Shown here: piece after piece, positions 9,419 to 55,811 of the stretch
Position numbering within the stretch: the first letter of the stretch is position 1
How the letters are laid out: every line of letters begins with the position of its first letter
NCBI GenBank assembly: GCA_035236585.1
Contig: CP141135.1
Location: 1,336,001 to 1,400,000, forward strand
Direction of reading: 5' to 3'
From: Warburgia ugandensis
Taxonomy: Eukaryota > Streptophyta > Magnoliopsida > Canellales > Canellaceae
Length of the DNA: 64,000 nt
Program-made: the position numbers and the translations under genes
Notes under the pieces: generated by a model
What the model saw: only the letters and a program-made list of their open reading frames with translations
Database searches by the model: none
Told to the model about the DNA's origin: nothing

Positions 9419-9452
<34 letters not shown>

Positions 9453-15834: not shown

Positions 15835-17291
15835 GGCTACGCGCCAGTGAGAAATCCAATCTGGGTTATCTGTCCACGCCGGAGAGAAGGAGGGGAAGGA
15901 TCGACGGAGAACTCTCTGTCATTGGAAAAAGAGGGCTCCGGGGTCCGCGCCAGAGAAAAGGAGGGGAAGGATCGACTGAGAAACCTGATTAGGGTTTCTC
16001 TCTATTGCTGGAAAAAGAGGGCTCCGGGGAGGGGGAAATCAAGAGAAAGGGGGTTATCCCTGCACTAGTGCCGGTGATTCCTGGTGGCAAGAGCTACACC
16101 CTAGAGCCAGAAGGATCGTGGGCCAGCAGTAGGAGGGGAATGGGGAGATCGGAAGGGGGAAAGGGTCTTTTTTTTTTGGGTCGCCGGGTTTTTCGGCAAC
16201 CCTCCTCTTCCTTTCTAGTTTCAGCTACACAACGTGGGGGAGGAGGGGCATGCGACACATGGCTCAGCTGTCGCATCGCGTGCGTCAGTCCACTAGGAGG
16301 TGTCAATATCAAACTTTGACCTCCTCTAAATTAGTAAAACTTTTGAGTTTTTCCACCCCGATCTCCATTTTGCCAAAATTAGTGTTGTTGAGATCGTATC
16401 GATGCGTACGTTCCAAATTTGATAATCCAAAGTCCAAATTTCAAGCCCATAAAGAGGTCATTTTCATAAACTTAATTTCCATGAAATTTAATTCAAATTT
16501 CTTATCCCCATTATAATTATAATTTAAAATCATGGAAAATGACCTAAATTTTATAGAGGTAGTCGAAGGAAACCCGATTTGAGTTTCTTTTCATCATTGT
16601 AAACAAAGAGGGTTCTGGGGTGAGGAACCACTGCTGGAAAAGCTTGATCGGAAAAGGGCTATGCGCTAGTAAGAAACCCAATCTGGGTATCTGTCTACGC
16701 CGGAGAGAAGGAGGGGAAGGATCAATGGGTTTCTCTCTCTCACTAGAAAAAGAGGGCTCCAGGGAGGGGGAAATCAAGAGAAAGGGAGTTTTCCTTGCAC
16801 TAGTGCTGGTGATTCCCGGTGGCATGAGCTGCATGCCAGAGCTAAGAGGATCATGGACCAACAATAGGAGGGGAATAGGGAGATTGGAAGGGGGAAAGGG
16901 TTTTTTTTTTGGGTAGTCGGGTTTTCCAGCAACCCTCCTCTTCCTTTCGAGTTTTAGCTACATGACATGGGGGACGAGGGGCATGCGACACGCGGCTCAG
17001 TTGTGGCATCACGTGTGTCAATCCATTAGGAGGTCAATATGAAATTTTGACCCCCTCTAAATTATAAAACTTTTGGGTTTTTCCACCCCAATCTCCGTTT
17101 CGCACAAAATTAGTATCATTGAGATCGTATTAACGCGTACGTTCTAAATTTGATGATCCCAAGTCCAAATTTCAAACCCATAAAGATGTCATTTTCATAA
17201 ACTTAATTTGTATAGAATTTAATTCAAATTTTTTATCCCTCATTATAATTATAATTTAAAATCATGAAAAATGACCTAAATTTTATAGTTG
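15835..17291 (+). repeat. large tandem duplication, two units offset by about 735 bp
   Basis: The segment ending at 16556 (gacctaaattttatag) is repeated with its equivalent end at about 17291. Shared landmarks include gccggagagaaggaggggaa (about 15880 and 16700), gggggaaatcaagagaaagg (about 16031 and 16767), a homopolymer T run followed by a tcgggtttt block, and the AT-rich tail. The two units differ by many substitutions and small indels. Unit 1 also has an extra internal partial repeat near 15890-16010. Confidence 0.85.
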
Positions 17292-36600: not shown

Positions 36601-36854
36601 GGAACTTGAGAACCTATAACCTTCTCCGAGAATTCGCTCTCATTGATAACTGTTACTTCACAGCTTACAGAGAATCTCCGCACAGAATAACGAAGCTTGG
36701 ATTTTAACAGCCGAGATCTTCCCACCCACTGACTCTGTGATCGGAAAAGGAGATTGTTTGGAGGGTGGAAATGGGCGGAGGAGATTTTTCTGATGGATGG
36801 TGATGAGAGTCGAAATGGGGTAGTGGGTTTGGAGATGGTGCTGGTTGTTGCCAT
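33677..36854 (-). CDS. TRXX: thioredoxin x, chloroplast
   Basis: There are two exons on the minus strand: 36525-36854 (110 codons) and 33677-33883 (68 residues plus stop). They join at a phase-0 GT-AG intron of 2641 bp to give 178 residues. The first ~65 residues are Ser/Thr/Arg-rich with few acidic residues, typical of a chloroplast transit peptide. The mature part has the redox-active WCGPC at residues 94-98, the buried-acid context of the thioredoxin fold, and the cis-proline in YGLPT at 136-140. [11 protein letters not shown] and [15 protein letters not shown] are characteristic of the plastid x-type, which supplies electrons to 2-Cys peroxiredoxins in stroma. The length is close to that of Arabidopsis TRX x (about 170). 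It is convergent with NBS1. Confidence 0.93.
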
Positions 36855-38302
36855 GATTGGGAGTGGGGAGAGAAGAAATTGCGCTGCAGGGATTGATTTT
36901 CTACAATTTATGGAAGATGGGGGAAATGGTGGGAATTTGTGGACTCGTGGAGGTGGAGAATTGGATTATCTGAACCCATTATTTGACGACTCTGGATTTG
37001 GCAAGGAGAATATGGGTAGAGGCTGTGTGGCTTTCAGCCTTTGGTTGGGAAGAGAGAGGGCGTGGGGGGAGGGGACCCACATCGAGTATTTACTCTTTCA
37101 GTAGCTGTAGATTCTGATCTGATTGAGATAGCATGTGGTGTCTGCAAGTGAAGTACAGTTGCAAAGCACCTAAATGTCAACGTGAGATGCAGATCATTGG
37201 CGATAAAAACATGGATCGATCGATCTCGGATCATAATTATTATTAGAATTTTGATTGGTGGATCCTACGATCTCAAATTGATTTGATCAATATTTGATCA
37301 CTTAAGAGGTCTTCCTTGTGTTATGGTGCTAGAATGCCTTTGTTCAATTTAATTTAAAATTATATCTAATCAATTTGATTATCTTCACAATTATTTTCCT
37401 TTTTTTTAAGTATAAGTTCTGATTTCTTTAGGATCAAACAAAAAAGAAAACTAATCATTCAAGTATCAAAATTTTAAAAGGGGCGAGAAGAATGTCCTAT
37501 CAAAGTAAATAAAAGTGATGAAAAATATTTAAAAATTAAAAAATAAATAAAGTCACGACACTTAATAGAATAGAATCGAAGAATAAAATTCATCTAATTG
37601 GACCTCAAAACGGAAGAAAAAAAAATAAATTAAAAGCTATTGAATGGCCTAAGATAGAAGACTACTATCAACGTGTAATCATTATAGATTAAATATTTAA
37701 ATATTATGAGATCTAAAAGTCTCTCCCTCTCTCTCTTGGCCATACACGCACGTGCACCTGCCGGTTACTGTCTACTTTGAGCTGTCATGTTACGTTCTTT
37801 GCTTGCCTATTTTATATTATTCTCCAAGTTAACTTTTTCTAAACTAGTTTACTAAAAAATAAAAAATCCTTTTATACTACAATATATTTTGCGCTGGCGC
37901 ATTGCCTTGTCTTATTATATTCTTTGCTTAATTCATATTTAACTGATATATGCTTCTGCAAGTTGTTGCTGTATGATTTTGAGGTCACAAGTTTAATACA
38001 TGACTCTTTCAATGCGAGTTAAGGTTGTGTACTATTAACCCTTTGAAGGAGCTTCATACGCAAGACATTTGTTAGTATTATATTAGATGATTAAAAGCGA
38101 AAAATTCCTATGCCACTATTGTAATAGTAAGTAGTTTTCTTATTATATTGTTTTTTGTTTTTGATGTTAGATCTAAGATGGTCTGAAATCCGGTGGGATC
38201 TGAACGAACTAGATCTCATTGAGCCGTTGATCATATATTTAAGAATGGCTAGTAGAATTGCACAAATAAGACAATAATAGTAGGACAAATACAAAACACT
38301 AA
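36855..38302. other. thioredoxin x upstream region and intergenic DNA
   Basis: The first few hundred bases are the 5' flank of the minus-strand thioredoxin x gene. No clear TATA box could be fixed. The rest is AT-rich and I see no gene in it. The open frame at 36754-37104 plus is antisense to exon 1 and its promoter. Confidence 0.5.
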
Positions 38303-38368
38303 GGGGGGTTTATTCAATTGCACATGTTAGGCGTTTTTGAGATATGCCGGCATATCTCAAATGTGCAC

Positions 38369-38578
38369 GTTATTAAACTACGATATTTTCGGCATATTTG
38401 AGATAACGGGTTTATTTAATTGCGTTATCTTCCGCACATTTGAGATATCGAGTTTATTTAACTCTGATATCTTCGGCACATCTGAAATATCAATTTTATT
38501 TAATTGCGATATGTTACGCATATTTAAGATATCAGCTTTATTTAACATATGGAGGAGCTGATATCTTTTGCGTTTTGA
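38369..38578 (+). repeat. 42-bp subterminal tandem repeat, left end
   Basis: The anchor ttatt(t)aa recurs at 38369, 38411, 38453, 38495 and 38537, exactly 42 bp apart. Units share a gatatctt-cgcac-atttgagatatc pattern with a small palindrome. Such repeats next to a terminus are typical binding sites for a DNA transposon's own proteins; that role is inferred. Confidence 0.85.
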
Positions 38579-40202
38579 AAATATGCCAAACCATTTTTAC
38601 CGTGTAAACATGCCCTTAGTTTAGTGAGAGAAAATACGATTTCAACCTGCGTTTTCTAGTGAGAGAAGAGAAGCAGGGGGAAACCCTCATCTTCGTTCTA
38701 AGGTTTCAAAGAAACCCTCATCTTCGTTCTAAGGTTTCGGCGAGAACCCCTCAGTGAAACCCTCATCTTCGTTGTCTGGGCTGCATCTTCGTTCCAAGCA
38801 GGGAAGGAAAGCCGTTTCTGTTGCTCTCCTCTTTCACAGTTTGATTGCTTCCCTTGCCCTCTCTCTGCTTCGTTTTTCTTCGCTTCTCCATTTCCCCCTT
38901 TCATTCTCTTCTTTGTCCCTCTCTATTAGGTTTCATTGAGAACCCCTCGGTGAAACCCTCATCTTCGTTGTCTGGGCTGCATCTTCGTTCCAAGCGGGGA
39001 AGGAAAGCCATTTACATTTGCTCTCCTCTTTCACAGGTATGAGGTGAGAGTAATTCAAAGAAAAAGGAGTTGTAGAGGATTAATGACCTTAGAAGAAAGT
39101 ATATGATGGAGCAATTTTAATATTTCTTCGAATTAGAGGAACTTAGACATTTAAATTGTTATTTAAGATATTGTTGGACATGTAGGAACATTGTATTTAT
39201 TTTGTATGGTAGCTTATTATGGATTAAATAGATAGTTGTGGATGTGATAGTGGATCCTATATAAGCTCTTATTGTATAAATTATTTTGAATGTATGAGAA
39301 GGTTTTTGCTAGAGATACCCGGGTTTGAAGAAATGGTATTTGAAAAACAATGCATGTGATATTTTGTTTTTTCATAAATGTTTTTTAAAAAGAATTCCAA
39401 GGGTACCCTGACATTTTCAAAAAATATTTTTAAGGAAAACTATTTCAGAAAAAAACGAGTCCTTAAGGTAGAGATAGAGTTGGAGTTTGTTTCGTTGCTA
39501 TTGGAGAGTTTTAGCTACATTTTAGGAGAAAGAGTATAAGGAGATGTAAAGAACATATTTGAGGTGATTTTTTGAATAATATAATTTGCTTCTTATCATA
39601 GTTTTTCTTTGCTTCACAGTTTGCTGGTTTTTAGTTTCCTCTGTTTTGGAGAAAAGCATTGGAAGGCCTAAATTGGAGAGAGATATATCAACCTGGTTTG
39701 CAGGTAACATCTTAAACACACAAATTTTTCCCTTGGGATTAGTTTTTAGAGCTACTGCATATCTGTTTGTTTGCTGATAATTATCCTTTAAGACTTTATT
39801 GTGGTTAGTTGCATGAAGCTTTAGGTGTCAAAGCAACAGGTGGCTGTTGAAAATCTTTTATATTCTATCACTTTTTCTGGCCTCCCCAGGCCTATTGAGG
39901 TCTTTTTTTCATCCCTTTTAAACCCTAACTCATAACTCTTTAATAATCCTATACTACATTATATGTTTGACTATAAATCTACCCTTTCCCAGTCCTAAAT
40001 GCCTACAAAATCCAAAATCCATCAAATCCTTTTTGCTTTTACCCATACACCTGTTGTACAAGGCCCAAAACCCTTCATATGTCCATTCCAATTCTAGGTA
40101 AAACCCAAAACACTCAAACTCAGATGCTATCTTATTATGAAATGCCTCCCAAACCTCATAAAGTTTTTACCAAATAGAAACCACAGAGATTCCAACTAAG
40201 TC

Positions 40203-41476
40203 ATGGAGGAACTAGTTCAAAGGCAAGAGGCAAATCTGAAACGGTTTCAACAACAAATTATGGACACAATTGCTGTTCAAATCCAAACTACCATTATGAT
40301 GCAATTTCAAACCTCAGTCTTAATCAGCATGTTGCTCTCAACCTCCTAGAAACCATGAAGATAGGCATTTAAACCTGTCCAAAAAGGTCGAGCTATTCAA
40401 ATGATCAAAATTAGGGAGAATGGCATGTGCATCAAGAATGGCATGTGCATCAACTACATCTAAATCTGGTACATTGACCTCCCTTTGAACCACAATAAAG
40501 TTGTTGGGATGGAAGTGTAAATGAAATTCCAGAATTTTTAGGTGGTGTGCCAGATAACTTTCACAATTGGGTCAGAATTGTTGAGGACACATTTCAGCAA
40601 GGAAATTCCAGCTACTAAAAGGGTTGCTCTTGTCGTCATCTGAATCTGAGGCTGGTAATAACCACTTGGTGGCAATCTTTAAAATATCAACACAAGCAAT
40701 ATTTTAAACCACCTCTTACAGATTAGGATGAATTAAAAAGGCTCATGAAATGGGGATTTTTACCATTCAACAATCAACATACATTGTATGACAAATTACA
40801 GAAATTATCTCAAAGGGTCGGAAATGGTGCAACAATATACCGAAGAATTCCATAATCTCCTGGTCCATAATCAATTGGGTGAAAGCCCTACAGTAGTTTT
40901 ATACTGCATGTAGACCATAACTTACATATCCATCGCTCATGCTAAAGCTTTAGAGGCGGAAGGGATTAAGAAGTCCAATTCCTTTCATTCTGCGGTCTTT
41001 GCCAAAGTAGTTATCTTTGCCACTCATGAATGAGTTTAAGGATGTTTTTGTTGAGGAATTACCTCTTACTTTAACACCTTTGCACAAGGGACAATATTGT
41101 ATCAATTTTGCTTGAGCTAAGTCTCATTTGGCTACTTATGCTTCCAATTGGCGGTGTCGACAAGAATCAAAGAAGCTGAAAAACCAAAGACAAGCAGCGA
41201 AGATTAGATTCTTGTCCTTCAATTAGGAACCATGGCCGAGTTCCAATTCTTTTTCAATATAGATTCGGATGTTCCATGTATGAAACGGGCAAGGAAATCA
41301 GATTGTTGCCTTCTTGTTGAATTGGATTATATTCGTATCAGTGTCTTTATTGCATATCTTTATATATATGTTCGTTTCCCTTGATAAAAAATTGCATATG
41401 TACTTTGCAATAAGTGAGTGATCTCCAAAGATTTATTTGGGTCTTATATGTTGAGAAGTTTTCTTCAAGTGGGAGA
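40203..41476 (+). pseudogene. deleted Ty3/gypsy gag-pol fragment, left arm
   Basis: Broken frames show a retrotransposon gag. One reads MEELVQRQEANLKRF, the next EFLGGVPDNFHNWV near 40532, and a later one the capsid-like LYDKLQKLSQ. At about 41032 they jump to the start of a Ty3/gypsy polymerase, NEFKDVFVEELPLTL, with no protease or zinc knuckle between. Near 41465-41476 is a purine tract (aagtgggaga) followed by TGTAGGAGTTG, which looks like a polypurine tract and LTR start. It is a dead internal-deletion derivative carried as cargo inside the arm. Confidence 0.65.
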
Positions 41477-42582
41477 TGTAGGAGTTGTCAACCAATGGAC
41501 TTAGGCCCGAGTAAATAGGGCATTCTAAACCTTGTTTGGTTCTATTCTGTAGTCACTGATTTGATATATGATATTATGTGGTTAATTGTAGTAATCTTCT
41601 AAAAGACTGTCATGATTCTTGGAATATCTTGTAATAAAGGGAATAGTTATATATATAAAATGTTTGACTTGTTATTTGGTCAATTGTTATAGTTTCACTT
41701 TAGTTACAGTCGATAAAGATTGCCATGAACTTTACTTCTTTTTCATGTATTTCCAACTTCACATGGAATATTGTCTCCATGTTCAGTTTGGTCTTGATGT
41801 GATTGATGGAAAGAAACCTGAGGATATGCTTTTGTTACTAGCTTCATGTAGTATATTTTTCAGCTTTTCCAATATCTTCCCTGTTTCCATTTGTATACTT
41901 TATGGTAAGTGAGAATTCACGTGGAAGCTTCTGTAGTAAGTAGTAGCTGGTCTCCATACTAAAGAAACTTCCAAAATGTATCATTAATAGATTATGTATA
42001 ATTTTCCTTATTGATAGATTATGTAGAAGTTCATTTATTTCCTTTTAGTCATCAAGCTTTGACACTAGATATGAATCATGTTTATTTGACATTATATTGA
42101 AGCATCATCCTATAAGCAACATTAACTTACCTGGTGTTCCTGGTAAGATGATAAAGCATGCATTTTAAAATAATCGGCTTATTGATTCTTTGAGAATGAT
42201 TCTGACATAGGATCCATCTTACATGTTCTCTAGATCTGCTTAATCCCTTAGAAGATGATAAAATGGTGCCAAAAGTTGAGTCTTTTAGATGGATCTATCC
42301 CTGGTTAAACATATCCTTTGCCACAAAGCAACATGTTGCGGCCTTTTAAATTTGTTGGTCTAACCACGTTGTCAACGATGTTTCCTATTTGTAAAGCACA
42401 ACTAAAAAGCATCATGTTGAAAATTTGTAACAAGATTTATTCTAAAATTCAAGTTGTAGAGTCCTGTTTGATAGAATCCATAGGGAAGAAGTAGAGGTAC
42501 CTTTCATCCATATATTGATCCTTCAACTATATTATTTTTATGCATCCTCTTATTGGTATGATATATTGGAGACATTTTTCGG

Positions 42583-43726
42583 ATGCCACGCAAAAGAAAG
42601 GAAAGAGTCCCTGTGACACCTAGTCGTATTCATGCCGAAGATATGGACAATGTGTATGAAGACATTGTTGATGGAGACAAGGGACCATACAATAAATGGA
42701 CCAAGGAACAAGAGGACTTTATCCTTGAAACACTTTATGATGAAATCATAGAGGGAGAATCATCGCAACGGGGGTATGCCAAAGGGTGTGGTGATCGAGG
42801 GTGTTGCTTCGCTTCAAGAGCGATTTGGAGTTGATTTAACAATGAAGCAATTGAATACCAAAATACGACTTTTCAAAAGCAAGTACATGACGCTTGCAAA
42901 GTTAAGGAATGGAGACTCAGGATTAGGGTGGGATGCGAGAGAGAAATTGCTTCCTTGCAACCCCGAGAGATCATGAACACCCACCTCAGGAGTAATGCAC
43001 CACACCAATTCTATAATAATATATGTCAGCTTTACAATCATGTTAACAAATGTTTGTGTACGTACAGTCGAATCCAGAAGCTCGGTGCTTATTTGGGAGG
43101 AATTTATGGAATTATGACCACACAGACGGTGTTTGGGGGAGCATTGCCCTTAGGAGAATTTTCCTCGAGGATTAATATTTGTAGATGATGAAGGACTTCT
43201 TCGATCGAGAATGGGTGGCGATCAATATACACACCCGAGTTGAGCAAGTATACGAGACCCGATATGCCAAATGTGGATGTTGATGCATTTTACTCTCATG
43301 ACTCATATTATCGGGAGGAAGGCGAAGGGGATAATGATGAATTGCACACACAAGAACCATGCGGAAACCTCCCCAACCCCAGATATGCCGAGAATACTTC
43401 CACAACATCATCCTCAATTCCCTCCTCAAAGTCGGTTAACCCACGGCGAGCGAGGACAAAGGGAAGCAAGCTGCTCAATCATCATCCTCAACATGCAATG
43501 ATCATCCTCCATTAATTGATCCTTCCATTATATCAAGGTTGGAACGACTTGCGAGGCATAGACAACTCCTCATGGATGGCTTGCATTGGATTCTTTGGAG
43601 CATCGGCCAGAGATGGAAAAGGTTAAGGCATATAGTATTCTCCAAAAAACGGATATAGGCTTCAGGGAGGGTTTTGCACGTTGGTCGCAGGATTGGCAGC
43701 TCTTGTATGTTAGGATGCACCTATAG
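42583..43726 (+). pseudogene. Harbinger ORF1 (Myb/SANT-like protein), left arm, frameshifted
   Basis: It starts MPRKRKERVPVTPSR, a basic nuclear-type start. The Myb/SANT-like core WTKEQEDFILETLYDE follows at about residue 46. The frame breaks at about 42752 (relative to the right arm) and continues as VDLTMKQLNTKIRLFKSKY in another frame. A second exon-like part from about 43072 (MPNVDVDAFYSHDSYY) ends at 43726. In PIF/Harbinger elements this ORF1 product binds DNA and helps the transposase enter the nucleus and act. Several indels make this copy inactive. Confidence 0.8.
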
Positions 43727-43979
43727 GTGTTTGGTGTTTGCAGAGAAACTATTTTACTTGAATCTCTTTGGTGTGTATTTATATTGGACCTCTATACGCC
43801 ATATTTATTATGGTTAGACATATAGTATTCGTACATTGAGTCAACGAAGTGTGTATTTATATTGGACCTCTTTACTTCTATATGAATGATGTTGTAATAT
43901 GCATATTACAATTGAAAATTTCCATGGTTATAAAAGTTGATTAATCGCATGTAACGCATCACATGTGTATACTATGCAG

Positions 43980-44767
43980 TTCACATATGTGCTTGCTGGC
44001 TATGAGGGAGTGCGCACATGGCCCATCTTTGAAAGAAGCTCATACAAGACGAGGAGCACCGTTGGCAATTCCTGGCGGTAACTCCATTATGTGTTTACAT
44101 TAATACATTCTAGCTAGGTCCTCGTTCCTTAATCGATGCACTTATGGTACAGAAAATACTACCTAGTTGACGGTGGTTACGCAAATAGGCAACAATTTCT
44201 TGCCCCATATCGAAAGACTAGGTATCATCTAAAGGAGTTTGCCCAGGGAATGCAGCAACCACAAAATGCTGGGGAGTTATTCAACCTTTGACATGCAGTG
44301 CCGGAATGTAATAGAAAGAACATTTGGTGTTCTAAAGGCGGATTTCCCATCCTCAAGACTGCACCCCCCTTTTCTATTAGGATACAAGTTAATCTTGTCA
44401 AAGCATTATGTGCGTTGCACAATTTTATGCGCCAGGAACGCATTGACGATACGTGTTTGGAAGAGGAGATCAGAGACAATCATGAGTCTCCAATCTCCAA
44501 TGACAATGAAGGCAATATGTTCAACAATGATTCAGAGGATGAAATTGTCAACGATGTAAACTTGGGAAGGGTGAATGCGGTATGCATGTGTTGCATGAGG
44601 ATGAGATGGAGTTGCGGGGTTTACAAACACTCATAATGAGCACAAACAATTCACGAGAGCACGTCGATGCGTCCTACCCCGAGGCTGCTCGTCGAGATCT
44701 TCTTGCTTGGCGTGCTTCCATAGCACAAAAGCGTGGTTTGATTATGTTCATAGAAATAACCGAGTAG
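43980..44767 (+). pseudogene. HARBI1-like transposase C-terminus, left arm
   Basis: Exon 43980-44077 is the equivalent of the GSAHD segment but is scrambled by indels, so the second catalytic aspartate is lost. After a short intron, the part from about 44153 reads YYLVDGGYANRQQFLAPYRK, then VIERTFGVLKA with the third acidic catalytic residue, and ends near 44767 with RRDLLAWRASIAQKRG. Frameshifts occur at several places. The N-terminal part with the first catalytic aspartate is absent. Confidence 0.8.
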
Positions 44768-44919
44768 ATGTGCCTTCTGTGCCCAAAAATAATGTATTGA
44801 AGCTTTGATTTAGGATGTATTATGTGGCTTGCTTGATTTAATTGATGCTTGAATGCTTATTTGAATTGTATCTATTGCTAATAGCTCAAAATATATGCAC
44901 ATGATATCTTATTGCGGGA

Positions 44920-45303
44920 ATGGATGAAAACCCCACCCCTTATGTGCATGTGGCCGGGGGCCTATGCTGTTGCTCCAAGTACGGTCGAAGCCCAATCGTG
45001 GCAAGTGGTACTTACGTTGTCCTGCAAACGAACAACATACAAGATGGTTTATGTGGCTTGATGAGTACGTGCCGGTTGAATTACCACCCTTAACACCAAT
45101 TGGGACGACAATGCGCCAGCGGGAACGGTGGGATGGGGGATTCGATCAACATGTGGTGTCGACGCCCACTATTGCATTACAAGATGGAGTGTCTCCCTTG
45201 TATTTAATGCCCCATCCTCATCATTTAATGTAGTAGCATATGTCCTTGGTGGACTTGTACTTGTAATTCTCATGCTTGTGATTGTGCCTTTGTTTATGTA
45301 GAA
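44920..45303 (+). pseudogene. GRF-zinc-finger-like membrane protein, left arm, frameshifted
   Basis: The start MDENPTPYVHVAGGL agrees with the right-arm copy, then one missing base shifts the frame within the cysteine-rich part. The downstream frame from 44964 reads SKPNRGKWYLRCPANEQ and FMWLDEYVPVELPPL. It loses the hydrophobic tail through another indel near 45190. See the intact right-arm copy. Confidence 0.6.
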
Positions 45304-45346
45304 CTTATTTTCTAACTTTCATGCAATAACTTTTGCTTGTAGTCAT

Positions 45347-45492
45347 ATCGGGGTCTTTGTCATGGCTGAGAGAGGAAGTTGATAGCATCGAACCAATCAA
45401 CATTCATACGGTCACACACACTCAAATACGTTATATGAGATAGAAAAATTACCAAAATGTAGACATTGTTGGAAATCGCAATTAGAAGGTAG
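45347..45492. other. 146-bp loop of the fold-back, made of flank-derived pieces
   Basis: The loop begins with a direct copy of the sequence found at about 52616-52651 outside the right arm (atcggggtctttgtcatggc and onward to gaagttga). It continues with an inverted copy of 52528-52606 (from tagcatcgaaccaatc to ccaaaatgta). The last ~30 bases (gacattgttggaaatcgc and onward) have no partner I can find in the window. Confidence 0.85.
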
Positions 45493-45537
45493 ATGACTAC
45501 AAGAAAAAGTAATTGCATGAAAGTTAGAAAATAAGTT

Positions 45538-45927
45538 CTACATAAACAAAGGCACAATCACAAGCATGAGAATTACAAGTACAAGTCCACCAAGGACATA
45601 TGCTACTACATTAAATGATGAGGATGGGGCATTAAATACAAGGGAGACACGGTCGCTGCCTCCATCTTGTAATGCAATAGTGGGCGTCGACACCACATGT
45701 TGATCGAATCCCCCATCCCACCGTTCAGGGCGCATTGTCGTCCCAATTGGTGTTAAGGGTGGTAATTCAACCGGCACGTACTCATCAAGCCACATAAACC
45801 ATCTTGTATGTTGTTCGTTTGCAGGACAACGTAAGTACCACTTGCCACGATTGGGCTTCGACCGTACTTGGAGCAACAAAGATAGGCCCTCGGCCACATG
45901 CACATAAGGGTGGGGGTTTTCATCCAT
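45538..45927 (-). CDS. small GRF-zinc-finger-like protein with C-terminal membrane segment
   Basis: This is a 129-residue open frame. Residues about 18-50 contain SKPNRGKWYLRCP and TRWFMWLDEY, matching the N-P-G-R-x-F/W-Y-x-C-P and F-x-W-x-D-E core of GRF-type zinc fingers, although the expected first cysteine pair is not in frame. The last ~23 residues (about 106-128) are a strongly hydrophobic membrane segment. Many plant GRF-type proteins combine this finger with a tail anchor. It lies downstream of the transposase on the same strand, as a third gene of the element, which is not a standard Harbinger component. It may be captured host sequence. Function unknown. Confidence 0.55.
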   Translation of the reverse strand: MDENPHPYVHVAEGLSLLLQVRSKPNRGKWYLRCPANEQHTRWFMWLDEYVPVELPPLTPIGTTMRPERWDGGFDQHVVSTPTIALQDGGSDRVSLVFNAPSSSFNVVAYVLGGLVLVILMLVIVPLFM

Positions 45928-46121
45928 TCCTGCAATAAGATATCATGTGCATATATTTTGAGCTATTAGCAATAGATACAATTCAAATAAGCATTCAAGC
46001 ATCAATTAAATCAAGCGATCACGTAATACATCCTAAATCAAAGCTTCAATACATTATTTTTGGGCACAGAAGGCACATCTACCGGTTATTTCTATGAACA
46101 TAATCAAACCACGCTTTTGTG

Positions 46122-46875
46122 CTATGGAAGCACGCCAAGCAAGAAGATCTCGACGAGCGACCTCTGGGTAGGACGCATCGACGTGCTCTGTGAATTGTTT
46201 GTGCTCATTATGAGTGTTTGTAAACCCTGCAACTCCATCTCATCCTCATGCAACACATGCATACCGGCATTCACCCTTCCCAAGTTTACATCAGTGACAA
46301 TTTCATCCTCTGAATCATTGTTGAACATATTGCCTTCATTGTCATTGGAGATTGGAGACTCATGATTGTCTCTGATCTCCTCTTCCAAACACGTATCGTC
46401 AATGCGTTCCTGGCGCATAAAATTGTGCAACGCACATAATACTTTGACAAGATTAACTTGTATCCTAATAGGAAAGGGGGGTGCAGTCTTGAGGATGGGA
46501 AATCTGGCCTTTAGAACACCAAATGTTCTTTCTATTACATTCCGCAGCTGTGCATGTCGAAGGTTGAATAACTCCCCGGCATTTTGTGGTTGCTGCATTC
46601 CCTGGGCAAACTCCTTTAGATGATACCTAGTCTTTCGATATGGGGCAAGAAATTGTTGCCTATTTGCGTAACCACCGTCAACTAGGTAGTATTTTCCTGT
46701 ACCATAAGTGCATCAGCGATTAAGGAACGAGGCATCTAGCTAGAATGTAAAAATGTAAACACATAATGGAGTTACCGTCAGGAATTGTCAACTGTGCTCC
46801 TCGTCTTGTAAGAGCTTCTTTCAGCACGGCAGCGTCATGTGCAGACCCCTCATAGCCAGCAAGCACATATGTGAA
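46122..46875 (-). pseudogene. HARBI1-like transposase C-terminus, right arm
   Basis: Exons 46776-46875 and 46122-46696 are joined by a GT-AG intron in matching phase. They read FTYVLAGYEGSAHDAAVLKE (second catalytic D), DGKYYLVDGGYANRQQF and RNVIERTFGVLKARFPILK (catalytic E), followed by VLCALHNFMRQE, the typical DDE_4-family C-terminal helix. A frameshift changes the last ~25 residues, and the upstream ~250 bp contain no exon for the first catalytic D. It is about half a transposase: DDE folding is not possible without the missing part. Confidence 0.83.
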
Positions 46876-47129
46876 CTGCATAGTATACACATGTGATGCG
46901 TTACATGCGATTAATCAACTTTTATAACCATGGAAATTTTCAATTGTAATATGCATATTACAACATCATTCATATAGAAGTAAAGAGGTCCAATATAAAT
47001 ACACACTTCGTTGACTCAATGTACGGAATACTATATGTCTAACCATAATAAATATGGCGTATAGAGGTCCAATATAAATACACACCAAAGAGATTCAAGT
47101 AAAATAGTTTCTCTGCAAACACCAAACAC

Positions 47130-48274
47130 CTATAGGTGCATCCTAACATACAAGAGCTGCCAATCCTGCGACCAACGTGCAAAACCCTCCCTGAAGCCTA
47201 TATCCGTTTTTTGGAGAATACTATATGCCTTAACCTTTTCCATCTCGGTCAGATGCTCCAAAGAATCCAATGCAGTCATCCATGAGGAGTTGTCTATGCC
47301 TGCAAGTCGTTCCAACCTTGATATAATGGAAGGATCAATTAATGGAGGATGATCATTGCATGTTGAGGATGATGATTGAGCAGCTTGCTTCCCTTTGTCC
47401 TCGCCGCCGTGGGTTAACCGACTTTGAGGAGGGAATTGAGGATGATGTTGTGGAAGTAACCGGGCTATCGGGGGTTGGGGGAGGTTTCCAGATGGTTCTT
47501 GTGTGTGCAATTCATCATTATCCCCTTCAGCTTCCTCCTGATAATATGAGTCATGAGAGTAAAATGCATCAACATCCACATTTGGCATATCGGGTCTGTA
47601 TACTTGCTCAACTGGGTGTGTATATTGACTGCCACCCATTCTCGATCGAAGAAGTCCTTCATCATCTACAGAAATATTAATCCCTGAGGAAAATTCTCCG
47701 GTGGCAATGCTCCCCCCAAACACCGTCTCCAGGTGGTCATAATTCCATAAATTCCTCCCAAATAAGCACCGAGCTTCCGGATTCGACTGTACGTACACAA
47801 ACATTTGTTAACATGATTGTAAAGCTGACATATATTATTATAGAATTGGTGTGGTGCATTACCTGGAGGTGGGTGTTCATGATCTCCGGGGTTGCAAGGA
47901 AGCAATTTCTCTCTCGCATCCCACCCTAATCCTGAGTCTCCATTCCTTAACTTTGCAAGCGTCATGTACTTGCTTTTGAAAAGTCGTATTTTGGTATTCA
48001 ATTGCTTCATTGTTAAATCAACTCCAAATCGCTCTTTGAAGCGAAGCAACAATTCCCTGATCACCACACCCTTTGGCATACCCCCTGTTGCGATGATTCT
48101 CCCCTCTATGATTTCATCATAAAGTGTTTCAAGGATAAAGTCCTCTTGTTCCTTGGTCCATTTATTGTATGGTCCCTTGTCTCCATCAACAATGTCTTCA
48201 TACACATTGTCCATATCTTCGGCATGAATACGACTAGGTGTCACAGGGACTCTTTCCTTTCTTTTGCGTGGCAT
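47130..48274 (-). pseudogene. Harbinger ORF1 (Myb/SANT-like protein), right arm, nearly intact
   Basis: This is the better-preserved copy. Exon 1 is 47863-48274 with WTKEQEDFILETLYDE and the trihelix-like run MKQLNTKIRLFKSKYMTLAK. Exon 2 is 47130-47786, encoding SNPEARCLFGRNLWNYD, an acidic histidine/proline-rich middle and RLERLAGIDNSSWMTALDSL near the end. The intron is about 76 bp with GT-AG borders. One extra G near 47890 shifts the last eleven codons of exon 1 relative to the NPEIMNTHLQ frame that would join exon 2, so it is probably a pseudogene. The layout (SANT domain, then a C-terminal region beginning W-N/D-Y-D-x-L-E) matches plant Harbinger ORF1 and its domesticated relatives. Confidence 0.82.
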
Positions 48275-49381
48275 CTGAAAAATGACTCCAATATATCATA
48301 CCAATAAGAGGATGCATAAAAATAATATAGTTGAAGGATCAATATATGGATGAAAGGTACCTCTACTTCTTCCCTATGGATTCTATCAAACACGACTCTA
48401 CAACTTGAATTTTAGAATAAATACTGTTACAAATTTTCAACATGATGCTTTTAGTTGTGCTTTACAAATAGAAACATCGTTGACAACGTGGTTAGACCAA
48501 CAGAATTTAAAAGGCCGCAACATGTTGCTTTGTGGCGATGAGTCGATATGTTTAACCAGGATAGATCCATCTAAAAGACTCAACTTTTGGCACCATTTTA
48601 TCATCTTCTAAGGGATTAAGCAGATCTAGAGAACATGTAAGATGGATCCTATGTCAGAATCATTCTCAAAGAATCAATAAGTGATTATTTTAAAATGCAT
48701 GCTTTATCATCTTACCAGGAACAGGGTAAGTTAATGTTGCTTATAGGATGATGCTTCAATATAATGTCAAATAAACATGATTCATATCTAGTGTCAAAGC
48801 TTGATGACTAAAAGGAAATAAATGAACTTCTACATAATCTATCAATAAGGAAAATTATACATAATCTATTAATGATACATTTTGGAAGTTTCTTTAGTAT
48901 GGAGACCAGCTACTACTTACTACGTAAGCTTCCACGTGAATTCTCACTTACCATAAAGTATACAAATGGAAACAGGGAAGATATTGGAAAAGCTGAAAAA
49001 TATACTACATGAAGCTAGTAACAAAAAGCATATCCTCAGGTTTCTTTCCATCAATCACATCAAGACCAAACTGAACATGGAGACAATATTCCATGTGAAG
49101 TTGGAAATACATGAAAAAGAAGTAAAGTTCATGGCAATCTTTATCGGCTGTAACTAAAGTGAAACTATAGCAATTGACCAAATAACAAGTCAAACATTTT
49201 ATATATATAACTATTCCAGCTATTACAAGATATTCCAGTAATCATGACAGTCTTTTAGAAGATTACTACAATTAACCACATAATATCATATATCAAATCA
49301 GTGACTACAGAATAGAACCAAACAAGGTTTAGAATGCCCTATTTACTCAGTTCAGAAGTCCATTGGTTGACAACTCCTACA

Positions 49382-50642
49382 TCTCCCACTTGAAGAAAAC
49401 TTCTCAACATATAAGACCCAAATAAATCTTTGGAGATCACTCACTTATTGCAAAGTACATATGCAATTTTTTATCAAGGGAAACGAACATATATATAAAG
49501 ATATGCAATAAAGACACTGATACGAATATAATCCAATTCAACAAGAAGGCAACAATCTGATTTCCTTGCCCGTTTCATACATGGAACATCCAGAATCTAT
49601 ATTGAAAAAGAATTGGAACCTGGCCATGGTTCCTAATTGAAGGACAAGAATCTAATCTTCGATTCATTTGTCTTTGGTTTTTCGATTCTTTGATTCTTGT
49701 CGACACTGCCAATTGGAAGCATAAGTAGCCAAATGAGACTTAGTCGGAAGCAAAATTGATACAATATTGTCCCTTGTGCAAAGGTGTTAAAGTAAGAGGT
49801 AATTCCTCAACAAAAACATCCTTAAACTCATTCATGAGTGGCAGCATAACTACTTTGCAGCACTGCAGAATGAAAGGAATTGGACTTCTTAATCCCTTCC
49901 GCCTCTAAAGCTTTAGCATGAGCGATGGATATGTAAGTTATGGTCTACATGCAGTATAAAACTCTTGCAGGGCTTTCACCCAATTGATTATGGACCAGGA
50001 GATTATGGAATTCTTCGGTATATTGTTGCACCATTTCCGACCCTTTGAGATAATTTCTGTAATTTGTCATACAATGTATGTTGATTGTTGAATGGTAAAA
50101 ATCCCCATTTCATGAGCCTTTTTAATTCATCCTAATCTGTAAGAGGTGGTTTAAAATATTGCTTGTGTTGATATTTTAAAGATTGCCACCAAGTGGTTAT
50201 TACCATGACGACAAGAGCAACCCTTTTAGTAGCTGGAATTTCCTTGCTGAAATGTGTCCTCAACAATTCTGACCCAATTGTGAAAGTTATCTGGCACACC
50301 ACCTAAAAATTCTGGAATTTCATTTACACTTCCATCCCAACAACTTTATTGTGGTTCAAAGGGAGGTCAATGTACCGTATTTAGATGTAGTTGATGCACA
50401 TGCCATTCTTGATGCACATGCCATTCTCCCTAATTTTGATCATTTGAATAGCTCGACCTTTTTGGACAGGTTTAAATGCCTATCTTCATGGTTTCTAGGA
50501 GGTTGAGAGCAACATGCTGATTAAGACTGAGGTTTGAAATTGCATCATAATGGTAGTTTGGATTTGATCTGCAATTGTGTCCATAATTTGTTGTTGAAAC
50601 CGTTTCAAATTTGCCTCTTGCCTTTGAACTAGTTCCTCCATG
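49382..50642 (-). pseudogene. deleted Ty3/gypsy gag-pol fragment, right arm
   Basis: This is the mirror copy of the fragment at 40203-41476, with the same gag-to-polymerase deletion and the same purine tract. Its presence in both arms shows that the retrotransposon fragment was inserted and deleted before the arm was duplicated. Confidence 0.65.
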
Positions 50643-52251
50643 ACTTAGTTGGAATCTCTGTGGTTTCTATTTGGTAAAAACTTTATGAGGTTTGGGAGGC
50701 ATTTCATAATAAGATAGCATCTGAGTTTGAGTGTTTTGGGTTTTACCTGAATTGGAATGGACATATGAAGGGTTTTGGGCCTTGTACAACAGGTGTATGG
50801 GTAAAAGCAAAAAGGATTTGATGGATTTTGGATTTTGTAGGCATTTAGGACTGGGAAAGGGTAGATTTATAGTCAAACATATAATGTAGTATAGGATTAT
50901 TAAAGAGTTATGAGTTAGGGTTTAAAAGGGATGAAAAAAGACCTCAATAGGCACCGGGGAGGCCGAAAAGTGATAGAATATACAAGATTTTCAACAGCCA
51001 CCTGTTGCTTTGACACCTAAAGCTTCATGCAACTAACCACAATAAAGTCTTAAAGGATAATTATCAGCAAACAAACAGATATGCGAGCTCTAAAAACTAA
51101 TCCCAAGGGAAAAATTTGTGTGTTTAAGATGTTACCGCAAACCAAAGTTGATATATCTCTCTCCAATTTAGGCCTTCCAATGCTTTTCTCCAAAACAGGA
51201 AACTAAAAACCAGCAACCGTGAAGCAAAGAAAAACTATGATAAGAAGCAAATTATATTATTCAAAAAATCACCTCAAATATGTTCTTTACATCTCCTTAT
51301 ACTCTTTCTCCTAAAATGTAGCTAAAACTCTCCAATAGCAACGAAACAAACTCCAACTCTATCTCTACCTTAAGGACTCGTTTTTTTAAATAGTTTTCCT
51401 TAAAAATATCTTTTGAAAATGTCACGGTACCCTTGGAATTCTTTTTAAAAAACATTTATGAAAAAACAAAATATCACATGCATTGTTTTTCAAATACCAT
51501 TTCTTCAAACCCGGTATCTCTAGCAAAAACCTTCTCATACATTCAAAATAATTTATACAATAAGAGCTTATATAGGATCCACTATCACATCCACAACTAT
51601 CTATTTAATCCATAATAAGCTACCATACAAAATAAATACAATGTTCCTACATGTCCAACAATATCTTAAATAACAATTTAAATGTCTAAGTTCCTCTAAT
51701 TCGAAGAAATATTAAAATTGCTCCATCATATACTTTCTTCTAAGGTCATTAATCCTCTACAACTCCTTTTTTCTTTGAATTACTCTCACCTCAAACCTGT
51801 GAAAGAGGAGAGCAACAGAAATGGCTTTCCTTCCCTGCTTGGAACGAAGATGCAGCCCAGACAACGAAGATGAGGGTTTCACTGAGGGGTTCTGAAACCT
51901 AATAGAGAGGGACAAAGAAGAGAATGAAAGGGGGAAATGGAGAGGCGAAGAAAAACGAGAGAGAGAGGGCAAGGGAAGCAGCAGTCAAACCTGTGAAAGA
52001 GGAGAGCAACAGAAACGGCTTTCCTTCCCTGCTTGGAACGAAGATGCAGCCTAGACAACGAAGATGAGGGTTTCACTGAGGGGTTCTGCTGAAACCTTAG
52101 AACGAAGATGAGGGTTTCTGCTGAAACCTTAGAACGAAGATGAGGGTTTCCCCCTGCTTCTCTTCTCTCACTAGAAAACGCAGGTTGAAATCGTTTTTTC
52201 TCTCACTAAACTAAGGGCATGTTTACACGGTAAAAATGGTTTGGCATATTT

Positions 52252-52461
52252 TCAAAACGCAAAAGATATCAGCTCCTCCATATGTTAAATAAAGCTGATA
52301 TCTTAAATATGCGTAACATATCGCAATTAAATAAAATTGATATTTCAGATGTGCCGAAGATATCAGAGTTAAATAAACTCGATATCTCAAATGTGCGGAA
52401 GATAACGCAATTAAATAAACCCGTTATCTCAAATATGCCGAAAATATCGTAGTTTAATAAC
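52252..52461 (-). repeat. 42-bp subterminal tandem repeat, right end
   Basis: This is the mirror copy of the 38369-38578 repeat in the right arm, with the same 42-bp spacing and the same ttaaataaa anchors on the plus strand. Confidence 0.85.
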
Positions 52462-52527
52462 GTGCACATTTGAGATATGCCGGCATATCTCAAAAACGCC
52501 TAACATGTGCAATTGAATAAACCCCCC

Positions 52528-52660
52528 TACATTTTGGTAATTTTTCTATCTCATATAACGTATTTGAGTGTGTGTGACCGTATGAATGTTGATTGGTTCG
52601 ATGCTATGAACTTCATATCGGGGTCTTTGTCATGGCTGAGAGAGGAAGTTGAATCCAAGT
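52528..52660 (+). other. flank segment copied into the fold-back loop; exon-like
   Basis: One frame stays open from before 52558 to a GT donor (tccaa|gtaagg) and reads MNVDWFDAMNFISGSLSWL followed by REEVES. I do not recognise it. Both halves of the segment recur inside the fold-back loop (45347-45463), one inverted and one direct. Confidence 0.4.
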
Positions 52661-52789
52661 AAGGTGGTAGTGTCTTTCTAGTTGAATACAAGTTTCTCTT
52701 ATTTCTTTAACCTTATTACTTTGGAGCTAATGGATCATTATTGAATTTATTCAGGTTATTTGATTTCTCCGTGTTTGGGATTTTCTGTA

Positions 52790-52997
52790 GACATTTTCAA
52801 TGGCACACCTTTGAGAGGTCGATTAAGTGATGGAACATCTACAATGAACAAATGGATATATGATGGACTTGAGCAGGTTTTAGCATATATGATGGTGACA
52901 TCGAGTGCAGTGGCAGAGATATTGTACTTGGGTTACAAGGGTGATCAGGATGTATCATTGAGTGAAGCTTGCAGTTCTTATGGGAAGTTCTGCAGTA
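52790..52997 (+). pseudogene. CASP-like (CASPL2-type) protein fragment
   Basis: An open segment reads [18 protein letters not shown], then [18 protein letters not shown] and SSYGKFCSK. This matches the third membrane helix and second extracellular loop of plant CASP-like proteins of group 2, where a helix with D-Q-x-L-x-Y precedes E-x-L-Y-L-A-x-K-G-D and a W-S-x-x-C-x-S/Y-F/Y-x-x-F-C loop. Only this part of a four-helix protein is present, so it is a gene fragment. Confidence 0.6.
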
Positions 52998-53179
52998 AGA
53001 TGAAGATCATTTAGCTTTTCTTCTCTATCTATCTTGTTTTGGTTTATCATGAATTTTCGATTCTGTTCTCAAAATGCCTCAAACTTACCAAAATCATTTT
53101 GTCAGTAGTCTATTGGGGGAGAGGGCCACTTCATCTTTTAACATTTAGCAGCGGATTCCCTCTTTGCTTGTGCAAGCAG

Positions 53180-53990
53180 GTGATGTGCACAGAATATATT
53201 GAAGAGAGAGCTGCTTCAAGCATTCATCAAGGACAGGAAGTTTTCAGCTCTTCCCAAGATTACTCATGTACTTGCTTCTCCTTATTGGTAAGTTATAGTT
53301 AACACTGTGCCAAGGTCTTAATTCTCTAGGATCATGTTAGTCATCTTGTATATGTTCATTTGAAGTTCTTACCAATCAAATCCTTTTCAGCAAATAGAGT
53401 GAAGAAGTTCTTTCGTCACTGAAACCTTGTCATTTTTCTAAAACATGAGCTTCAACATTCAATATATCTTTTATAATGTATTTCTCTCTCTGCTATGATC
53501 TTCTCTCGCACATCAACGTTCTAAATACAAACTCTTAACCATCAAATTCAATATCCTAACCCAATTTTCCAATCGCCTGAATATGTTAGGAAAATGTACA
53601 ATTTACTAACAGGTTCTTTTCAATTTTATTTGTCTAAAAGGTTAAGGTTATCACAGTGGTGTGGTCTATGCAAGAGTGATTATCTATTTGACTAGGCAAT
53701 TGGGTTCTCTTCAATGCAGCCGACCTTAACTATCTGGGGAGAGGATGATCAGATATTTCCCTTCGAATTGGCTCACGGATTAAAAGGCTGTTTTTAATTC
53801 TGTTGGATTCATTGTGGTCCGTTTCTTCCTTTTCCTTTCCTCCATGATGTGTGCTCATATTAGAAACTTTATAGGCATCTTGCGGAGAATTCAAGACTAG
53901 TAATCATCAAGCATGCTGGTCATGCTGTCAATCTTGAGTAGCCCAAGGAGTTCTGCAAATATTTGGAGTTCCTCATCGACAACTCTCCCC
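53180..53990 (+). pseudogene. alpha/beta-hydrolase C-terminal gene fragment
   Basis: Three exon-like parts with splice-type borders are seen. The first, 53180-53287, begins VMCTEYIEER and, after a 2-base slip in a GA run, continues LLQAFIKDRKFSALPKITH. The second, 53720-53788, reads PTLTIWGEDDQIFPFELAHG with the catalytic aspartate region. The third, about 53874-53990, reads HLAENSRLVIIKHAGHAVNL with the catalytic histidine, then has a stop codon where the family has lysine or glutamine. The nucleophile elbow and all N-terminal exons are missing. It is a truncated pseudogene of the plant alpha/beta-hydrolase family. Confidence 0.75.
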
Positions 53991-55484
53991 CCCCCCCAAA
54001 AAAAGTGTTATAAACAAGAAGGTATATTCATCTCATTCTTTCTGCACTTCTTTGTCAACATTTAAATGTTTTAGATGTTATAGCTTGTGGGTGACAGGAT
54101 GCAAGAAACAAGGAAGGTTTGATTATGCATTTCAATCAACGCTGGGAGGAAATGACATGTACAGCATCAAGTTGTGGCAATTTCAGAAGGAATCCTTTTG
54201 TTGTAGAATTGAAATACAGGAGACTGAATTGAAGGTGGCTATTCAATGATCACGCTCGCAGGTGATCCCTGCCTCTGCTGCTGCGGGACCAATTTCAATG
54301 TGGATCTGTTGTTACTTCAGTACTTTCTTCAAAATACGGAATCGGAGGGAGCTAACAGTGTAGCAGGTTCCTTTGTGAATAAGAATTGCTGGATTAATAC
54401 AAGACCATGGGCTGAAGGGAAGCCCATCGAGAACGTTGCAATTTTGAGCTGAGAATTCCATTGTAAAACTTGAAAAACTTTTCATGAAAATCATTTGTAC
54501 GGAACGCATTCTTATCAAGCAATGAAACAAAACCTTCTTGGGCATTGGAGGTTTGCTAAGAATTAGCACAGGCCAAAGAAAGCTTTAGCAGCTCACTCTA
54601 AGGATGTCACATGTATGCAGTGCATATATTGATGATGGGTGTATTCATTCACAACAATGATATCCTGATGGAGCTTGAGGGAAGATCAACGCTATGTTTG
54701 AATGTCCCCATGCTCCATTTGACCTCACAAGTTTAAGCTAATCATCATCATCCACAAGAGTGGATGTTTTACTAACGTAATCAAATAACTGAGTGCTTAG
54801 AAAGTGGTAGGGTTTTTATTGCCATCTTTGGGAATTAGTTCAACAGTGACCCATTTCTTCTTTGTAGCAGTAAAGTCACAGTGAGAAAGGCAGCAAGGCT
54901 CGCACTGAATGGATGGCCATAACTTCCCAGTCAATAGAATGTGGGGCATGAAAATGGGTTAATTTCTTAGGAAAGGCAATTTCCTAGCCACTTTCCAATC
55001 AATTCTTATTTTCATGTTCTAGAGGAGAAACGAATTTGCTGAAAAATGAGGGCTTGATTTCCAGCTGGAAATAGATTTCCATGTCAAAACAAACAACGAA
55101 AATCATGGGAAGCTAGAACCTGACTTCCATTTCCATTTGTTTCCATGCGGTCCTGCTAACCAAACAGGCCCTACGCATGTCCCACATGCATGGTGCAGTC
55201 TAATAACTGAACCCACAACTTAAAACGTAAGTATGCGTCCATTTGATATTTTTTAATGTAATTTCATGATTATACTAGACAATTTCATGGGATCTCTTAT
55301 CCTGCAAGTCCCAGGTGAGAGAATCCTCCCATGCACTGCACTAGAAGGCTTTCATGTGGATTGTTCAAACATTAAACAGATCTCTTTAGCTAATTCCCCT
55401 GCTCAAAGAGACTGAAATCTGTCAAGTTAACAAATGTGAGCAACGACTACTACAATTCATCCACTTGATCACATTGCTAGAAGG
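53991..55484. other. gene-less stretch right of the hydrolase fragment
   Basis: A C run followed by an A run lies at 53987-54004. Open frames at 54052-54452 have no recognisable domain. I see no gene or clear element. Confidence 0.55.
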
Positions 55485-55811
55485 GCCCTTACAGCCACAA
55501 CCCACTTCCAATATTATTAGAGAGGATTCAGACAGTAAACAAGCTTTTGAGCTCTTCAACCAAATGCCACATATCTCAGATATCACCAAAGATATCACCA
55601 GAAATATCACCACAGATATCACAGAACAAATGCCACATATCTCAGATATCACACAAGATATCACAGAACAAATGCCACATATCTCAGATATCACACAAGA
55701 TATCACAGAACATATGACACATATCTTAGATATCACAGAAGATATCGCAAGAGATATCACAGAAGATATGCCAACAAAAACGCCTAACATGTGCAATTGA
55801 ATAAACCCCCC
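55485..55811 (-). mobile_element. solitary terminus of the fold-back family (non-autonomous)
   Basis: The right end, cgcctaacatgtgcaattga followed by ataaacccccc, is the same as the right terminus at 52527 and is followed by TAA, the expected target trinucleotide. Inside is a 42-bp-period repeat: caaatgcc-acatatctcagatatc units at 55627 and 55669, a variant at 55711 and an earlier one at 55561. No left terminus is found upstream, so the left boundary is approximate. The repetitive open frames on both strands (DIT or ISE/VIS-rich) are products of the repeat. Confidence 0.8.

Follow-up and report, generated by a model that had tools for sequence, protein, structure and literature searches.

A 64,000-bp window of the Warburgia ugandensis genome (C10:1336001-1400000 of an assembly of 1.12 Gb in 14 contigs; positions are those of the window unless a contig is given) contains a long palindrome that sits within a PIF/Harbinger-type transposon and does not equal that transposon. 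We lean towards the view that a young PIF/Harbinger-type element is present here as a single copy, damaged and non-autonomous, in which the left 8 kb occurs a second time in inverted orientation. An initial annotation had described a giant fold-back transposon with limits at 38303 and 52527. Exact matches to the 30-bp terminus of the element are present in the window at 38303 (+), 52527 (-) and 55811 (-), so that the palindrome does have the same terminus at both of its outer ends, as annotated. However, the third terminus and the flanking bases place the right limit of the element further out: 38303-55811 (17,509 bp) is flanked on each side by TAA (CACTAA before, TAAGAT after), whereas the flanks of 38303-52527, TAA and TAC, do not match. 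What stands of the fold-back transposon is an inverted duplication of a Harbinger-type element with 7-kb arms; the element has no 7-kb terminal repeats, and the palindrome is internal to it.

Comparison of the window with itself by BLAST gives a single reverse-strand alignment of 45493-52528 with 45346-38302 (7102 columns, 96.6% identity, 81 gaps, E-value 0.0). The inverted arms annotated at 38303-45346 and 45493-52527 are thus confirmed to within a base or two, as is their length difference of about 9 bp (7044 and 7035 bp). The spacer between them is indeed 146 bp long, but it is not a unique loop: 116 of its bases recur at 52527-52655, and the remaining 30 are ordinary interior of the element. 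In the same self-comparison, 52527-52614, which lies beyond the right arm, matches 45462-45375 in the spacer at 98.9%. The inner ends of the arms, 45346 and 45493, have no second terminus, in agreement with the annotation, and the ordinary element simply continues there. Using an ordinary copy, c13 (C10:8859726-8871027), to number the element from E1 to E11302, the assembled order is E1-7982, E8099-8138, the reverse of E8093 to E1, and E8014-11302. Between E7982 and E8014, therefore, the left 8 kb lies inverted, preceded on its inner side by a 40-bp scrap in forward orientation, and 31 bp of the element are missing there. The bases 45375-45382 belong to both the forward scrap and the inverted copy. 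The features are collected in Table 1.

Table 1. Parts of the rearranged element and features within it, in window coordinates.
Feature	Position	Strand	Basis or detail
Whole rearranged PIF/Harbinger-type element	38303..55811	+	Exact termini, matching TAA flanks
Left terminal inverted repeat, 37 bp (E1)	38303..38339	+	37 bp perfect in c13; exact 30-bp match at 38303
Left arm, E1-7982 without 872 bp	38303..45346	+	Alignment to ordinary 11,302-bp element
872-bp deletion point, left arm	43974..43978	+	5-bp overlap at breakpoint
Junction A	45343..45382	+	TCAT overlap 45343-45346, forward piece E8099-8138, fold-back at GAAGTT 45375-45380
Inverted copy, E8093 back to E1	45375..52527	-	Right arm 45493-52527 and part of loop from 45375
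DDE transposase C-terminal part, right arm	46122..46712	-	Second D and E motifs retained
872-bp deletion point, right arm	46877..46881	-	Same deletion
Myb/SANT-like frame, right arm	47666..48295	-	PF12776, 28.6 bits, cut-off 23.6
Inner terminus E1, end of inverted copy	52498..52527	-	Exact match
Junction B	52527..52528	.	Terminus E1 directly abuts E8014, 0-1 bp overlap
Unduplicated right part, E8014-11302	52528..55811	+	Contains CASP-domain frame 52745-53014
True right terminus	55782..55811	-	Third exact terminus

The ordinary element is about 11.3 kb long. Ten other family copies were fetched with both sides and compared to the window; six are near full length (11.17-11.31 kb, measured between approximate ends) and have the same termini. 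Copy c13 has perfect 37-bp terminal repeats and TTA on either side. TTA or TAA stands on both flanks in 6 of the 7 other copies inspected, the seventh, c17, having TTA and TTG; in c15, which is among the six with matching flanks, the first terminal base is altered. Genome-wide, the first 30 bases of the terminus have 43 exact copies (control, 0). The family combines a 3-bp TTA/TAA target duplication, terminal inverted repeats, a DDE transposase and a Myb/SANT-like second gene, the features that define PIF/Harbinger elements. In ordinary copies, the left-arm sequence is followed by the reversed loop sequence, the equivalent of 52527-55811 and the right terminus, and in c13 and the other aligned ordinary copies the sequence runs uninterrupted across both of the window breakpoints. 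An inverted self-match longer than 150 bp is absent from all ten fetched copies. Likewise, none of the 39 other places found in a search with the palindrome centre, and none of the 28 others found in a search with the deletion point described below, has an inverted neighbour within 30 kb; this check took in 30 of the 40 rows of the deletion search, and copies without the queried stretches would escape detection.

Some of these copies are themselves rearranged. Copy c21 (L021-L022) is nearly identical to the others, apart from about 2.1 kb (window 39043-41125) that is swapped for about 1.5 kb of unlike sequence, and c27 (L027-L028) likewise resumes at 41126. On contig C3, an exact terminus at 11111398-11111427 lies about 11.6 kb beyond expectation if it is part of the copy at 11091719, which suggests, provided that the terminus belongs to that copy, that C3:11091719-11111427 holds a nested insertion.

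The origin of the two arms is recorded in a deletion that they share. The same 872 bp of ordinary copies are absent from both arms at the same point. A 201-base query across this point had 404 candidate places, and among the 40 scored matches only 2, the arms themselves, span it, while the other 38 cover one side. A deletion unique to the arms among the scored matches means that they derive from one deleted copy, and the sequence identifies them as descendants of such a copy (as sisters, alleles or the copy itself) and not as two family members that met by chance. The 14 substitutions shared by the arms were dropped as proof of common origin, many of them being at CAG/CTG, and the deletion was used instead.

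With the 872 bp, a large part of the N-terminal transposase half has been lost, including the first catalytic D, the motif of which is absent from both window arms; the second D and the E motifs are kept. In an ordinary copy (L014), two reading frames score above the cut-off for DDE_Tnp_4, and the counterpart of the C-terminal part listed in Table 1, L014:634-1269, matches PF13359 DDE_Tnp_4 with 50.5 bits. The left-arm counterpart of the Myb/SANT-like frame is shorter (42562-42834). All Pfam-matching frames, i.e., PF12776, PF13359, a weak GRF zinc finger below its cut-off and PF04535, are oriented from E1 to E11302. In the window, the left-arm frames consequently point rightward and those of the inverted copy leftward, facing each other across 146 bp. 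Also present in the family is a fragment of a CASP-domain gene that corresponds to its C-terminal part (PF04535, 36.5 bits; 52745-53014 in the window). This frame is uninterrupted from end to end in the window and at four further places; at a fifth it stays open for residues 1-84. The CASP-like fragment has 78 matches in the genome, a count in which element copies and host genes are not told apart.

Both junctions can be read base by base. Where the left arm meets the forward scrap, a 4-bp microhomology, TCAT, is common to E7979-7982 and E8099-8102. Where the scrap meets the reversed sequence, GAAGTT at E8131-8136 faces GAACTT at E8094-8099, forming a 6-bp inverted repeat with 31 bp between. 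Other genomic copies with the same centre, for which the initial annotation had proposed a search, were not found: with a 241-base query for the full centre, 1 of the 40 scored places (the best 40 of 170 candidates) matches, and this is the window locus itself, the 39 others being ordinary interior alone. With a 211-base query over 52527, junction B was not found elsewhere among the best 40 of 955 candidates, the 39 other scored places having the right part alone. With neither junction elsewhere among the scored candidates, nothing shows that the palindrome moves.

The junctions suggest how the rearrangement may have arisen. At one end, the captured piece stops exactly at the terminus, which suggests that transposase cut it there; at the other, the fold-back junction suggests a 3' end that had broken and folded back. 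The inner end coincides with the terminus to the base, which under random breakage would be expected by chance at about 1 position in 8,000. Moreover, the breakpoints E7982, E8014, E8099 and E8138 all fall inside 157 bp of the 11.3-kb element, so that the break in the target and the break in the fragment probably belong to one event. A copy already lacking the 872 bp would have been resident at a TAA site and would have suffered a break at approximately E7983-8013. A fragment from a sister, a homologue or the excised copy itself, with its E1 end freed by transposase and broken near E8138, could then have folded back its 3' end at GAACTT...GAAGTT to give a hairpin-capped end. Once opened, this hairpin would have been ligated to E7982 through the TCAT homology, with the cut E1 end being joined to E8014. 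We have moderate confidence in this best reading, in which a fragment that transposase had cut from the sister was captured at a break within the element, probably in a single event that is most simply placed between sister chromatids. Two points weigh against it. Folding of the DNA around the turn gives a structure no stabler than shuffled sequence (z 0.07), and with a fold-back site that is not unusually stable, support for the hairpin step comes down to the junction letters. In addition, a sister, a homologue and the excised copy are indistinguishable as sources of the fragment. As a separate observation, 313 bp are duplicated in tandem in copy c27 (99.7%); a breakpoint of this duplication, near E8026, lies close to those of the window, and it is possible that this stretch of the element is fragile.

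The main rival is insertion of the element into itself, as in double Ds of maize: the transposase would have put a whole second copy, inverted, at E8014, and its far end would have been deleted later together with E7983-8013. An inner end that is exactly a terminus is what transposition gives without extra assumptions. However, the neighbour of this terminus is TAC, whereas most of the other termini inspected adjoin TTA or TAA, and the left flank of the inner element is absent, leaving no second copy of a target duplication with which the TAC on the right could be compared. The forward scrap E8099-8138 demands an additional inversion, and the shared deletion would make the inserted copy a sister or homologue regardless. 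We therefore consider self-insertion followed by deletion to be unlikely, albeit worth keeping in view.

An assembly artefact, arising either from a fold-back long read or from two alleles or copies having been wrongly joined, is in our estimation less probable again. Systematic differences of the CAG/CTG type are typical of nanopore calls on CHG-methylated DNA, and 105 of the 155 differences between the arms lie within 3 bp of CAG/CTG. Fold-back reads make up approximately 0.55-0.6% of Oxford Nanopore Technologies genomic reads in the study PMC12870357; figures of 1-4%, and as high as 20-30% for tumour data, are cited there as well. Yet a fold-back read should mirror the left flank past 38303, and the mirror ends exactly at the terminus; after it, the sequence continues with the remainder of the same element up to a matching TAA. 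Joining by overlap is impossible over the 0-6 bp of homology at the junctions. The initial annotation had also raised the doubt of a false join. For two different family copies, the shared deletion makes this unlikely; two alleles of the locus would both carry the deletion, which by itself leaves a join of alleles standing, and against such a join count the exact stop of the mirror at the terminus and the 0-6 bp of junction homology. Finally, altered sites coincide between the arms as if they were independent (24 observed, 20.7 expected; the same letters in 7), which argues against one locus read twice but not against two alleles. A true fold-back transposon at 38303-52527 that moves by its identical 7-kb ends is highly improbable, for although the intact terminus at both outer ends could in principle be used by a transposase, the TAA/TAC flanks do not match, neither junction occurs at any other scored place and the proper right end lies 3.3 kb further on.

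The differences between the arms are mostly of one kind. Many of the 50 that do not lie near CAG/CTG are one-base insertions or deletions in runs. CAG recurrently appears as CGAG or CGG, and GCTG as CTTTG, in a listing by type that covered all 62 events of the right arm and 70 of the 110 in the left. The arms were aligned with c9, c11, c13, c15, c19 and c21, with c9, c13, c15 and c19 as reference; c17 was left out because of a large internal deletion, c23, c25 and c27 because of divergence or rearrangement, and c21, although aligned, did not contribute to the reference, on account of its replaced stretch. The left arm has 116 private substitutions and the right arm 68, compared with 10, 10, 14 and 21 in c13, c15, c19 and c9 (counts lowered by the fact that these copies help to form the majority), 185 in c11 and 1008 in the mosaic c21. 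Events at CAG/CTG (CWG) account for 88 of 130 in the left arm (18.5 expected), 54 of 81 in the right arm (12.2) and 154 of 245 in c11 (31.4), and 79, 43 and 108, respectively, of 164 CAG/CTG sites are altered. Across the five ordinary copies and two arms, the altered fraction of these sites ranges from 4% to 66% per row. The right part was aligned for the window, c9, c11, c13, c15, c17 and c19. Under a strict rule, the unduplicated right part of the window element has 2 private substitutions and c9, c11 and c17 have 60, 38 and 55; under a looser rule, the window has 12 events, 6 of them at CAG/CTG (95 sites). The right parts of c9, c11 and c17 have 48, 43 and 54 CWG events for 95 sites.

We attribute most of the arm differences to an incompletely polished nanopore assembly in which CHG-methylated cytosines were miscalled. 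A literature search and the accessible sections of the review PMC7501810 contain no direct statement that CHG methylation causes such errors. The clustering at CAG/CTG is possibly an indirect record of CHG methylation, and 96.6% is probably a lower bound on the true identity of the arms. Since the differences mostly look like base-calling errors, this figure cannot date the event, and dating by divergence was dropped. One left-arm patch, 44008-44134, is 86.6% identical to the right arm and at best 88.4% identical to any of the ten fetched copies.

The initial annotation had proposed that transcription through the palindrome would yield a long hairpin RNA. From the sequence this would indeed be expected, with the genes of the two arms pointing at each other, and read-through from either arm could give a long hairpin RNA and small interfering RNAs (siRNAs) that match ordinary copies, a route also proposed for Mu killer of maize. 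Identical stretches of at least 24 bp between the arms sum to 6,075 bp, the longest being 331. Of the right-arm 24-mers, 76-80% are found exactly in c13, c15, c19 and c9; for the left arm the figure is 66-68%. Against this, sharing of right-arm 24-mers is lower in c11 (0.53), c21 (0.50) and c17 (0.38) and only 0.03-0.05 in c23, c25 and c27, and altered CAG/CTG sites are frequent in inversion-free copies too and do not indicate hairpin-driven methylation. The error pattern was accordingly rejected as proof that a hairpin drives methylation of the arms, the inversion-free c11, c9 and c17 being equally or more altered. A bolder proposal is that this single-copy locus arose naturally and acts as a master silencer, the several-kb hairpin of which would give rise to siRNAs that methylate the 11.3-kb copies of a recently active family. 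We regard this as doubtful. Were the proposal true, a transposase-dependent repair accident would have given a Harbinger family its own off switch, similar to Mu killer in another superfamily.

Elsewhere in the window, a second inverted pair, 9450-12216 and 17968-20701, is 86-89% identical and has strong opposite GC skew, with a direct repeat at 15992-17288 between its two members. The start of a thioredoxin-domain frame (36444-36965, minus strand, 41.4 bits) is separated by approximately 1.3-1.4 kb from the element's left end, which puts the palindrome on the upstream side of this frame.

Several known systems resemble parts of this locus. In double Ds of maize, one element lies inverted within another of the same kind; by contrast, the window element has no second right end, and at its inner junction the right flank is TAC and the left flank is absent, so that no target duplication is seen there. 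With PIF/Harbinger elements of plants, the family shares TTA/TAA duplications, DDE_Tnp_4 and the Myb/SANT-like second gene, but its perfect terminal repeats are 37 bp long, compared with 14-25 bp given for autonomous plant elements in the available text of PMC2213677, and the window copy, unlike an ordinary element, is without half its transposase and has an 8-kb inverted copy inside. The same source describes inversions and nested insertions in Harbinger-like elements of Medicago, so that rearranged Harbinger copies as such are already known. An inverted-duplication derivative of Harbinger was not found among the papers listed in a literature search, judged by titles and the beginnings of abstracts, that had most subscription journals outside it. 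The turning at a short interrupted inverted repeat recalls the fold-back inverted duplications of yeast at breaks or forks (PMC10622511, PMC10766183). As far as these accounts extend, fold-back inversions form at inverted repeats of 3-15 bp, including a case with a 5-bp repeat and a 35-bp spacer in wild-type cells (PMC10622511), and inverted junctions at repeats of 2-14 bp (PMC10766183). Here, however, the inverted piece is bounded on one side by a transposon terminus, and the rearranged sequence is intrachromosomal and within one element.

The closest parallel is Mu killer (Muk) of maize, an internally deleted and inverted derivative of MuDR that silences its family; statements on it here follow the available text of PMC3440606. 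Both are deleted derivatives of a DNA transposon, autonomous MuDR in the case of Mu killer, with the transposase-side terminus at both ends of an inverted duplication. In Mu killer, two partial transposase copies face one another, and in the window, too, a partial transposase gene is duplicated in inverted orientation, with one and the same terminus at the outer end of each arm. The superfamilies differ (PIF/Harbinger-type here, Mutator in Mu killer), as do the arms, which are 7.0 kb here, whereas each half of Muk extends from the terminus to 1.298 kb within mudrA (PMC3440606). Unlike Mu killer, the window element keeps its remainder with the true right end attached. Mu killer silences its family, whereas the window locus is known here from the assembled sequence. 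In plants with an effective Mu killer, the RNAs are short, antisense and incapable of forming large hairpins (PMC3440606). Both junctions are legible in the present assembly, whereas the centre of Muk resisted sequencing (PMC3440606), and we class the locus, from its structure, as apparently of the Mu killer kind with unusually legible junctions. Silencing of a transposon family has been proposed to start from the inverted duplication of an autonomous member, and Mu killer is the known case (PMC3440606). A comparable product in another superfamily that can be read base by base would provide a concrete break-repair model, involving an end cut by transposase, for the origin of silencing inverted repeats, and names a locus at which to look for siRNAs.

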